A stretch of DNA of 38,574 nucleotides from an uncultured Bacteroidia bacterium (GTDB lineage: Bacteria; Bacteroidota; Bacteroidia; Bacteroidales; UBA932). Below, one piece after another: positions 28,090-37,175 of the stretch. A program made the translations under genes and the position numbers. How positions within the stretch are numbered: position 1 is the first letter of the stretch; the number at the start of each line of letters is the position of its first letter. Location: the NCBI GenBank assembly GCA_902785065.1, contig CACZXH010000020.1, positions 1 to 38,574 of the forward strand, written 5' to 3'. Under the pieces are notes generated by a model. The model saw only the letters and a list, made by a program, of their open reading frames with translations, made no database searches and had not been told where the DNA came from.

Positions 28090-28246
28090 GGAGGAAGGGA
28101 GTACCCTCTCGGAGGACTCCGCTTCGCTCCGGCCCCTCCCATTGTCTCCTGCGTCCCCGCCAAAGCGGGAACTTGTATCCAACGGGCCCCTCCCCCTACC
28201 CGTGTCCGAGGGTGGACACGCCTCCGAGAGGGTACTCCCTTCCTCC
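28090..28246. repeat. Palindromic element A, 157 bp, with 26-bp perfect terminal inverted repeats
   Basis: This lies in the gap between the S9 peptidase and the convergent radical SAM gene (28075-28245). The terminal arms 28090-28115 and 28221-28246 are perfect inverted repeats of 26 bp with the core GGGAGTACCCTC. Inside are a hairpin GTGTCC/GGACAC with loop GAGGGT (28202-28219), two CCCCTCCC blocks, a CGCTTCG block and a second hairpin with GCCAAAGC. The order of blocks matches element B in yggS. Apart from this element the gap holds nothing recognisable. The right end touches the stop codon of the radical SAM gene. Confidence 0.8.
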
Positions 28247-34504: not shown

Positions 34505-34538
34505 AAAAAGCGGCCCGCAGAATTGCGAGCCGCTTTTT
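34505..34538. terminator. Bidirectional terminator between the OmpA-family gene and yggS
   Basis: AAAAAGCGGC and GCCGCTTTTT form a perfect 10-bp stem with A and T tracts on its flanks, so it can act for both convergent genes. Confidence 0.85.
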
Positions 34539-35317
34539 CAGTATTCCCGTTCCCCGAAGATATCCGTGCCGATGCGCACCATCGTGGCGCCGTGCCGCAC
34601 GGCGATCGGCCAATCCCCAGACATCCCGATGGACAGTTCCGTGAAGGTGTCCCGCAGTTCCGGATGCTCCTGACGGATCCGCTGGAACAACGCTTCAATC
34701 CTCGCGAAATCCGCCTCAATCACCCCCTCGTCCTCCGTATTCGTCGCCATTCCCATGAGACCCCGGATCCGGATATGAGAGCCACGCTCAGCCGGGGAGG
34801 GTATACCTTCGGAAACCTGTGGCCACCCTCGGCCACATAAGAGGGAGGGGCCCGCCGCTTGCGGTGGGAGGGGTCGCGAAGCGACGGTTTGCGAAGGTAT
34901 ACCCTCCCCGGCGGTATTGACTATCGCAACAATCTCTTCCTCAGAGAATCCGTGTTTGGTTTCCTCGGCTCCCAGGTGGAGTTCCAGCAGGACATCGATG
35001 GTTTTACCATTGTCTCTCCCCCACTTGTCGATCGCCTCCAGCAGATGGAAAGAATCCACCGACTGGACCAGGGAGACGTATGGAAGGACGAGCTTGAGCT
35101 TGTTCGTCTGGAGATGGCCGATGAAGTGCCACTCGACATCGGCGGGCATCTGGGGCACTTTCTGCGCCAGTTCCTGCGGCCGGTTCTCGCCGAAGACACG
35201 CTGACCCGCATCATAGGCCTCCATCAGACGGGAGACAGGGTGGAATTTGGAAACTGCCACCAGTTTCACGGCTGATGGCAGTTTCTCGTAAAGGGCTTTC
35301 AGGTTATCGCTTACCAT
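34538..35317 (-). CDS. YggS-family pyridoxal-phosphate homeostasis protein with a 41-residue insert
   Basis: The protein of about 259 residues has the family features: KLVAVSKFHP (PLP Lys24), VFGENRPQEL, WHFIGHLQTNKLK, SVDSFHLLEAI, then IRIRGLMGMAT, SIGMSGDWPIAVRHGATMVRIGTDIFGERE. Normal members have 220-235 residues. The excess is in residues 136-176, between SEEEIVAIVNTAG and RIRGLMG. This region is encoded by palindromic element B and has a composition unlike the rest (SQTVASRPLPPQAAGPSLLC). The stretch lies at a surface helix-strand loop in known structures, so the protein may stay active; that is inference. The start overlaps the yidC stop by 14 nt. Confidence 0.9.
   Translation of the reverse strand: MVSDNLKALYEKLPSAVKLVAVSKFHPVSRLMEAYDAGQRVFGENRPQELAQKVPQMPADVEWHFIGHLQTNKLKLVLPYVSLVQSVDSFHLLEAIDKWGRDNGKTIDVLLELHLGAEETKHGFSEEEIVAIVNTAGEGIPSQTVASRPLPPQAAGPSLLCGRGWPQVSEGIPSPAERGSHIRIRGLMGMATNTEDEGVIEADFARIEALFQRIRQEHPELRDTFTELSIGMSGDWPIAVRHGATMVRIGTDIFGEREY
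34791..34912. repeat. Palindromic element B, 122 bp, in frame inside yggS
   Basis: Arms 34791-34811 and 34892-34912 are perfect 21-bp inverted repeats with the core GGGAGGGTATACC. Inside are a GTGGCC/GGCCAC hairpin with the same six-base loop as element A (34819-34836), GAGGGAGGGGCCC, TGGGAGGGG and GTCGC/GCGAC with GAA. The order of these blocks equals that of element A read on its minus strand. With one duplicated base the insertion would be 123 bp, or 41 codons. Confidence 0.82.
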
Positions 35318-37175
35318 TTTTCTTGGCCTGCTGTTTCTGCATTTCGCGCTGCATCTTCTGGGCCTCTTCCAGGCGCTGCTGCCACTTGGACTTGGGCGCC
35401 GGCTTGCCTTCGGCCGCCTTGAGCTTCGCAAGGATCTCTTCCGGATGGACGAACCACTTCTTGATAATCCAAGTCTCCAGCATCGTGATAAGGTTGGAGA
35501 GAAGATAGTAGTAGCTCAGACCGGAGGAGAGGTTGTTACAGATGAAGAACATCATGATCGGCATCATGTACAGGCTCATGAAGCGCATCATCTTCGCGTT
35601 CGGATCGTCACCAGTGCTCTGGTTCTGCATCGTCACACGCGAGTAGAAGAACATCGACAGGGCCATCAGGAGGGCGAACAGGGAGATATGGTCCATCCCG
35701 AATACGCTCGTACCCCAATGGATGACGTCGTCATAGGCGGAGAGGTCCTCGGCCCACAGGAATGGCTGCTGACGCAACTGGATGGAGGCCGGGAAGAAGC
35801 GGAACATCGCCCACAGGATCGGGAACTGGAGGAGCATCGGAAGACAGCCGCCCATCATGTTGACACCCGCCTTCTTGTACAGGTCCATGGTCGCCTGCTG
35901 CTTCTTCATCGCGTCTTCCTGCTTGGGATACTTGGCGTTGATCTTGTCCAGTTCCGGCCGGAGAACCTGCATTTTCGCGGAGGAAGAAAGGCTCTTGTAG
36001 GCGAACGGCAGGACGACCAGCTTGATGAAGATGGTCATCAGGAGGATGATAAGGCCGAAGCTCTTGATGAACTTGCTCAGCCAGTCGAACAGCGGGATGA
36101 TCACCCACTTGGTGATCAGGCCGACGATCCGGCCGCCCAGCGGAATCACCTTCTCGTAGGCGTGGTCATAGGCCTTGAGCCCCTTGTAGTTGTTCGGACC
36201 GAAATAGAACTCGAAGGGGATGTCGATGCGCGGAGCGCCCGGCTGGATGTCCGCCCGCATCTGCGCGGAGCAGGCCATCAGATCCTGGCTCGGGTGGTCC
36301 TTGCCCATGAAGTCGATGCTGAACTCGCCGTAGGTGAAGTCCTTCGGCGCCCGCATGATGGCGGAGAAGAACTGCTGCTGGAAGGCGAACCATTCGATCT
36401 TGTTGTCGAAGCGCTTGGAGCCCTTGCGGCCGTTGCCGATGTTCTCGGGCTTCTTGTCATCCGGGAAGTAGTAGTTCAGGCGGGAGTACTGGCTCTCGTT
36501 CTTGTAGCCCTTCTCCATCCGCGGGATGACGGCTTCGAAGTCCACGTCGATGCTGCCCACGTTACGCGGGATGAGGTTCTCCATGTTGACGAAGGAGAGC
36601 ACCTGGTTCACCGAGTAGGAATCCTTCACCAGGGTGTAGGTTTCCTCGATGTACCCGCCGTTGGAGAACGGGAGGCGCATGACGACGGTGGAGTCGGTGG
36701 AGGCTCCCGGGACATACTGGAAGTTGAACTTCCGGGTGTCCACGGCGGTCGGGGCATACACGACAAAGCCCAGCTGGGACTTGCCTTCCGTAAGGATATA
36801 CAGGTCAGACTTGTCGTAGGTCTGATAGTCCTTCACACGCACAGAGAGCGGCTGGGCGCCCATCGTGGTGAAGACGATTTCAAGCTTCTCGTTCTGGAGG
36901 GTAACGGTCTGCGCCTCGGCGTTGGCGGCGGCGTTCAGGAGCGAGTCGCTGTACACCGCGGCCTGCGTCGGAAGGGCGGCGACGACCGTATCTTCCGGAT
37001 GTTCGGCGAGATAGGCGGCCCGGATGCTGTCCTGCCGGAAGGCTTCGACGCGCGCAATGGAATCCTGCTGCGCCTGCCATTCCTGCTGCTTGCGGATCTG
37101 CCGGCTCTGGTAGCCGAAGAAGCCGAACATGAGCAGGGCGATCAGGACCCAACCAATGATTGAGTTTTTGTCCAT
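35304..37175 (-). CDS. yidC: Membrane protein insertase YidC
   Basis: The 623-residue protein has TM1 (IIGWVLIALLMFGFFGYQ), then a large periplasmic domain (about 45-370) of the type seen in Gram-negative YidC. The conserved membrane core follows: FGLIILLMTIFIKLVVLPFAYKSL, then PMLLQFPILWAMFRFFPASI and YMMPIMMFFICNNLSSGLSYYYLLSNLITMLETW. A basic tail ends QMQREMQKQQAKKNGKR, suited to ribosome contact. It inserts inner-membrane proteins with or without SecYEG. The DUF349 gene lies 9 nt upstream on the same strand. Confidence 0.97.
   Translation of the reverse strand: MDKNSIIGWVLIALLMFGFFGYQSRQIRKQQEWQAQQDSIARVEAFRQDSIRAAYLAEHPEDTVVAALPTQAAVYSDSLLNAAANAEAQTVTLQNEKLEIVFTTMGAQPLSVRVKDYQTYDKSDLYILTEGKSQLGFVVYAPTAVDTRKFNFQYVPGASTDSTVVMRLPFSNGGYIEETYTLVKDSYSVNQVLSFVNMENLIPRNVGSIDVDFEAVIPRMEKGYKNESQYSRLNYYFPDDKKPENIGNGRKGSKRFDNKIEWFAFQQQFFSAIMRAPKDFTYGEFSIDFMGKDHPSQDLMACSAQMRADIQPGAPRIDIPFEFYFGPNNYKGLKAYDHAYEKVIPLGGRIVGLITKWVIIPLFDWLSKFIKSFGLIILLMTIFIKLVVLPFAYKSLSSSAKMQVLRPELDKINAKYPKQEDAMKKQQATMDLYKKAGVNMMGGCLPMLLQFPILWAMFRFFPASIQLRQQPFLWAEDLSAYDDVIHWGTSVFGMDHISLFALLMALSMFFYSRVTMQNQSTGDDPNAKMMRFMSLYMMPIMMFFICNNLSSGLSYYYLLSNLITMLETWIIKKWFVHPEEILAKLKAAEGKPAPKSKWQQRLEEAQKMQREMQKQQAKKNGKR

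Follow-up and report, generated by a model that had tools for sequence, protein, structure and literature searches.

The closest described counterparts of the locus reported here are the palindromic elements of Rickettsia (RPE) and Wolbachia (WPE). In the passages cited, these are palindromes of 100-150 bp that occupy solvent-exposed positions in housekeeping genes without breaking the frame, and relatives may have different element types at one site (PMC10969869, PMC3767692); in these respects the family described below appears the same. Palindromic repeats of the REP/RAYT kind (GTAG and CGTC families) are likewise, in the portion of the literature drawn on, sometimes intragenic and in frame, including in tRNA pseudouridine synthases (PMC3733652). 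The window, that is, the whole stretch of 38,574 nucleotides that was analysed, comes from a genome of the Bacteroidales and holds two members of a palindromic family, one of them inside yggS.

The element in yggS and its relatives

The yggS insert is a 122-bp inverted repeat at 34791-34912, whose arms of 27 nt each (34791-34817 and 34886-34912) enclose 68 nt and are 96% complementary, with 21 perfect outer pairs, one mismatch and then five more pairs. The original prediction of a 122-bp element bounded by perfect 21-bp inverted repeats is confirmed for this copy; such repeats do not hold as a terminal repeat common to all copies, for the arms vary. Within the window, perfect 21-bp inverted repeats spanning 60-220 nt are limited to two places, 28090-28246 and 34791-34912, and 200 order-1 shuffles gave none. 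The fold was modelled on the plus strand (orientation O2), the coding strand of yggS being its complement (O1), and the features are as follows.

34538..35431, minus strand: yggS open reading frame (PLP homeostasis protein) that continues across the insert; Met at 35317 (residue 39 of the frame) is the likely start
34791..34912, plus strand: whole palindromic element in yggS (covariance model R1, E 3.2e-27)
34791..34817, plus strand: 5' arm, 27 nt, of locus-specific sequence
34818..34837, plus strand: hairpin 3 (TGTGGCC / GGCCACA) with loop ACCCTC, from alignment A1, pair counts and fold
34826..34830, plus strand: pseudoknot side 1, CCCTC, partner of 34841-34845, from pair counts
34841..34845, plus strand: pseudoknot side 2, GAGGG, from pair counts
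34851..34868, plus strand: hairpin 2 (CCC...GGG), loop and upper stem hypervariable among copies
34873..34885, plus strand: hairpin 1 (GTCGCGAAGCGAC), from the alignment, pair counts and fold
34886..34912, plus strand: 3' arm, 27 nt, complementary to the 5' arm
28090..28246, minus strand: element A, second member in the window (R1, E 1.2e-17), of a subtype with a larger hairpin 2

The minus-strand yggS frame stays open across the insert, which occupies approximately residues 136-176 when the numbering starts at Met 39 of the 297-aa ORF, in agreement with the expected in-frame addition of about 41 residues that leaves the gene intact. Pfam matches Ala_racemase_N in this ORF, and PipY/YggS structures in the PDB match two stretches, residues 40-167 and 218-295, that flank the insert. 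The comparison of YggS proteins suggested for finding an empty site yielded one in the genome G068 (L043), where the protein, 88% identical to that of the window, lacks the element, carries EEEILMIFEGSTPKSIRIRGLMG at the insertion point and is 41 residues shorter. Had all relatives carried the insert, this would have counted against the prediction, but they do not: among the 30 yggS loci read, the element is present in 10 and absent from 20, and the ten copies, six in one orientation and four in the opposite, have unlike arms. In G020 (L044) the element is absent, and a Gly/Ala-rich low-complexity expansion lies at its insertion point, so this loop tolerates unrelated inserts.

Ten of the 23 copies found in this genome are in frame inside recognisable proteins, namely those of yggS, ribF, trmB, a THUMP-like methyltransferase, an ABC ATPase, a GT2 glycosyltransferase, murB, a class I/II aminotransferase, an APH-RapZ fusion and a YgiQ-like radical SAM protein. 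Pfam matches flank or span the insert in most of the ten, and the protein names beyond the Pfam assignments are those we presume to apply. The aminotransferase ORF, in which a frameshift may be present, extends into a second protein. The genome G068 adds in-frame copies in truA and in a nucleotidyltransferase, and across four genomes 35 of 60 copies have at least 25 open codons of an ORF to either side, some of these frames being chance antisense ORFs; copies also sit at gene junctions. One core is read in three different frames by yggS, trmB and the methyltransferase, and murB and the RapZ-like gene read its opposite strand; since frame and strand vary among genes, there is no single conserved peptide. 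The inserts lengthen proteins and split profile matches in annotation.

BLAST of the yggS element against its own genome pointed to about 20 further places. The covariance model R1, built from 35 copies, found at E <=0.01 at least 23 copies in this genome and at least 11, 12 and 18 in G003, G148 and G068, respectively, these being lower bounds, as 150 of 759-1031 candidates were scored. With the exception of one partial arm pair, the copies in this genome measure 113-182 nt and are strongly self-complementary. Larger R1 searches, with 14 to 23 candidates scored per genome and counts again to be read as lower bounds, gave matches in at least 148 of 165 congeneric genomes (E <=0.001, completeness at least 90%), in at least 53 of 149 genomes and 11 of 25 genera of the family (E <=0.001), and in at least 5 of 247 genomes of the order (E <=1e-4), comprising the window's own, one more of the same family and three in other families; in one genome survey, 57 of 400 genomes were left out as unscorable. 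The exact pattern of the commonest core occurs in at least 118 stretches of named genomes and had no match in viral contigs, and searches of 72,556 records of plasmids and 50,697 of phages found no element match. The 80 titles among the matches listed are Bacteroidales or Bacteroidia records, many of them from ruminant stomachs. An Rfam search with six loci at E up to 5 returned four matches, all below the gathering score, the best on the element being mir-30 with 29.7 bits against a gathering score of 50.2. The prediction of a repeat recurring genome-wide in a Bacteroidales lineage is thus upheld by the copies within this genome, by the congeneric genomes and by sites without the element, and many further copies exist beyond element A. 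The self-complementary but locus-specific arms, the covarying pseudoknot in the core, the inversion of the core between species and the reuse of one site by different subtypes go further than what had been predicted.

Element A is located between two convergent genes. At the same junction G003 (L131) and G148 (L132) have short terminator-like hairpins instead, and intergenic copies may double as terminators. A separate observation concerns L277 (JAFUDV010000020.1), where an 8-kb stretch matches the window only over an element that apparently lies in another species' ribF-like gene.

Folded core and paired arms

The copies share a core of about 70 nt with three hairpins and a covarying pseudoknot, and the two longest arms define the palindrome around it. 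In O2 order the element reads 5' arm, AAACC, hairpin 3 (loop ACCCTC), GAGGGAGGGGCCC, hairpin 2 with its hypervariable top, GGGAGGGG, hairpin 1, GGTTT and 3' arm. Across 48 pairs in 35 aligned copies, 87.7% of cells are paired, compared with 69.5% in shuffled alignments and 38-50% when the partners are slid by 1-3 columns; the covariation score is 0.474 against 0.174 after shuffling, with 0 of 500 shuffles as high and slid partners reaching at most 0.172. The pseudoknot, which joins the loop of hairpin 3 to the G-run 3' of that hairpin, is paired in 98.9% of cells in the 35 copies, with three of its five pairs invariant and two changed on both sides (for example TC/GA, GT/AC, CC/GG, AT/AT), and a CCCGT/ACGGG subtype is kept at one locus in four species. 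On both strands the fold of the whole element lies 8 s.d. below that of shuffles; the core alone folds no better than shuffles (z -1.1 and -1.5), so that, given the covariation, the support for the core fold is comparative and not energetic. A core subtype in which GGCAAACGGGGCCCCCGAAAATCTGTCGATTTTTGGGGTG replaces the usual segment before hairpin 3 recurs across different loci and species (L068 in G335, L069 in G294 and L105 in G148 C35).

The outer arms, of about 20-35 bp, differ in sequence at almost every locus, and each pair is mutually complementary. In the arm set of named genomes, 118 stretches supplied 117 elements, of which 6 lack scorable arms and 111 have scorable, paired arms, which pair at 94.4% with their own partner and at 34.5% across copies, and 100 of 101 arms are distinct; in this genome the corresponding values are 0.94 and 0.41. 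Near-identical cores may carry unlike arms, as at C6:40828 and C5:169641 and in 12 of the 20 copies of G449, the other eight of which share arms. The same holds for the 12 copies read in G288 and the 8 read in G222, where the closest arms within a genome share 73% and 68% of 22 positions. Read outward from the core, arms in the named-genome set retain RAACC together with one pyrimidine-rich and one G-rich stretch, and a weak position-specific motif, GGGTAT-8 nt-RAACC, is common to two genera (single copies read GGGTAT-8 nt-AAACC). In G743 the copies form two groups with arms conserved within each.

Two side observations touch on shared arms. The eight G449 copies concerned (L190, L192-L195, L198, L200, L201) often have a flanking motif GCGCTAAGCG(T)AG, which would fit insertion of the element into another repeat followed by joint spread. 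In G743, which belongs to another family of the order, two subtypes lie in adjacent pairs in opposite orientation (L346, L349, L352), each with its own conserved arms.

Such conserved arms in G743 and in part of G449, together with the size, the dispersal and the absence of coding capacity, are what an ordinary MITE would offer, with the terminal inverted repeats of a known insertion sequence and movement by its transposase. Against this stand the arms, which are not common to copies in the window's genus, and the target-site duplications, which were not evident by eye at the sites read, where diverged flanks could hide short ones; moreover, an enzyme search with PF01797 and PF00078 found no parental element. 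We regard this explanation as very unlikely.

Change, loss and probable movement of copies

Most copies in the four close genomes have same-locus orthologs, as judged by comparison of their flanks. Among 21 ortholog pairs, both sides have changed at 79 arm positions, with the pairing preserved, and one side at 11; these pairs were hand-chosen from ortholog groups, with some redundant pairs dropped and the groups C17:12782 and C7:232864 left out (copies of different subtype or heavily rebuilt), and are not all independent. The core is flipped between copies in 5 of 17 ortholog groups, and one site has been re-occupied by different element subtypes. Stepwise single-base compensation would leave many one-sided differences and arm-to-arm copying would not, from which we infer template switching as the probable cause both of the joint rewriting of the arms and of the inversion of the core. 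There is precedent for both effects in the parts of the literature cited, since template switching between inverted-repeat arms in yeast coding genes gives arm homogenisation and spacer inversion (PMC8604942), and for RNA hairpins it has been put forward as a means of their creation and maintenance (PMC8794818).

The account that we favour, and consider probable, is a dispersed non-autonomous palindromic mobile-element family of the Bacteroidales, whose arms are rewritten by replication template switching. Copies would have moved in the past with their arms carried along, as the weak arm motif in two genera suggests. After insertion, template switching on the long hairpin would copy one arm onto the other, keeping the pairing perfect as the sequence drifts and also inverting the core, and in-frame copies would persist owing to the scarcity of stop codons in the core and to its landing in protein loops that tolerate it. 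We infer the movement of copies, no jump having been observed among the occupied and empty sites compared, which come from different species. Several findings weigh against this account. The spacer here is 68-95 nt or more, compared with spacer inversions of 2-5 bp in yeast, as the cited portion of that study gives them (PMC8604942). In the four close genomes, common descent accounts for most copies, eight of the 20 G449 copies share arms, and the core taken alone folds no better than shuffles. Further, even at old sites the core is better conserved than the arms, and template switching by itself does not account for this.

The last point also favours another possibility, that the element is a structured RNA or single-stranded DNA functional at each locus, as a regulator, an mRNA stabiliser or a protein-binding site, and is kept by selection and not by mobility. 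The strong covariation, pseudoknot included, and the subtype kept at one locus in four species agree with this, as does a strand bias in the arm mismatches. On O2, G.T outnumbers A.C by 54 to 15 in 78 of 80 elements (two without anchors left out) and by 47 to 25 in a second set (p 0.013), counts that include orthologous copies and are not independent, and this lean fits selection on RNA or on a single DNA strand equally well. The presence of both orientations at the same gene, of copies within ORFs in several frames, and of frequent absence and decay, with no copy detected in 17 of 165 congeneric genomes among the candidates scored, speaks the other way, and we consider selection at each locus improbable.

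Seven sites are without the element and without any arm sequence: C17:28051 in G148 and G003, the G148 C11 site in G003 and G294, the G068 C63 site in this genome, C28:23875 in G003, and the counterparts of three G449 sites, L186 (in G543 and G432), L196 (in G563) and L202 (in G563). Several elementless sites are overlapping stop-start junctions (TAATG). Elsewhere decay is visible. In G003, most of the core at C7:162520 has disappeared between two AGGGT repeats, and GGATAGAGTCTATCC is all that remains at C17:15191; in trmB of G294 the arms are present and the core is gone; and in trmB of G148 the left arm stands alone, joined directly to the right flank. With loss by short-repeat deletion so frequent, some of the absences are losses. 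Several sites where relatives have the element hold short palindromes of another kind, CCTGTCATTCCGAGCGAAGCGAAGGAATCTC or CTTGTCATTTCGAGCGAAGC, namely L070 (G216, inside trmB), L133 (G148), L156 (G000 C45:5204-5784) and L166 (G000 C25).

The lone arm in trmB of G148, together with C6:40821, where the outer left arm equals the end of the upstream gene and is missing to the right of the empty site in G003 and G148, is the reason for keeping a further rival, inverted target duplication. Here the core alone would insert and copy about 20 bp of host flank in inverted form, leaving locus-specific arms, and near-identical cores with unlike arms would follow, as would the pairing that in G449 often extends into the flank, by up to 36 bp. 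The trmB case, however, is better read as a deletion between GAAAA repeats, because the more distant G068 has the element with nearly identical arms. The seven elementless sites bear no arm sequence, the arms have a weak position-specific motif in common, and arm G+C is weakly linked to flank G+C (rho 0.18 to 0.25); on this weak correlation a host-derived arm composition was rejected. Inverted target duplication accordingly appears doubtful, and we give it little weight.

As to what moved the copies, palindromic form, dispersal and a preferred strand would suit a REP/REPIN-like element with a Y1 (RAYT/IS200-like) transposase, or a retroelement with a reverse transcriptase. Copy number across 20 genomes tracks neither PF01797 (Y1 transposase) nor PF00078 (reverse transcriptase), and both were rejected as movers. 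G476, with at least 18 copies, has no PF01797, and G402, in which no copy was detected, has seven; PF00078 is absent from G000 and G449 and present in 6 of the 20 genomes. Either route would be extremely improbable. The favoured reading of a mobile family could be carried further by a tentative suggestion, which we think unlikely, that the core is a pseudoknotted RNA or single-stranded DNA module for an undescribed mobility machine and that each jump rebuilds the second arm by fold-back copying. If true, this would make the element a hairpin that moves, remakes its own ends and enters gene junctions and protein loops time and again throughout the Bacteroidales.

Relation to known palindromic systems

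Overall, the family is real and large, and what is unusual in it is the arm-rewriting behaviour. In-frame palindromic inserts, hitherto peculiar to the Rickettsiales, are now seen in free-living gut-type Bacteroidales, where almost all species of a large genus have them, with yggS, ribF, trmB, murB and truA among the host genes. The copies provide natural replicates of how long stems keep perfect pairing as their sequence changes, and of how proteins gain about 40 unrelated residues with function retained. Moreover, the family likely exposes an undescribed mobility machine. No description of this family in the Bacteroidales was found in searches that covered mainly open-access literature and, by title, a paper on Porphyromonas gingivalis repeats.

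The original likening to RPEs is sustained in behaviour, as a palindromic repeat that recurs in frame, and the family would work like RPEs as these are described, the likeness being one of behaviour. It is dispersed, palindromic and inserted in frame, as RPEs are. It differs in that each RPE encodes a conserved peptide, according to the cited part of the description (PMC10969869), whereas the present element is read in several frames and in both orientations and has no one conserved peptide. It also belongs to another phylum, and hypervariable self-complementary arms around a pseudoknotted core are not among the RPE features given in the cited passages (PMC10969869, PMC3767692).

Correia elements and MITEs are similarly non-coding, dispersed, of about 100-200 bp and with inverted ends, and inversion of Correia elements is reported in the portion of the source used (PMC10969869). 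Their ends, however, are conserved between copies and match a transposase, whereas here the arms vary, with the eight G449 copies and G743 as exceptions, and no transposase was found in the searches with PF01797 and PF00078. REPs share the palindromic form, but are 20-40 bp long, carry a GTAG or CGTC tag and are linked to Y1, in contrast to the present element, which has neither a Y1 link across the 20 genomes nor an invariant end tag. Alignment A1 contains no invariant terminal tetranucleotide, CGTC occurring only inside hairpin 1 of some subtypes.

Finally, the nearest parallels to the arms themselves come from eukaryotes. As far as the cited parts of these studies go, yeast template-switch inverted repeats keep their arms complementary inside genes and undergo spacer inversion (PMC8604942), and the coding palindromes of nematomorph mitochondria have perfectly complementary arms inside genes (PMC6649704), as do the elements described here. 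The yeast and nematomorph palindromes, however, are native to their genes, whereas those of the Bacteroidales form a dispersed family with a shared core.
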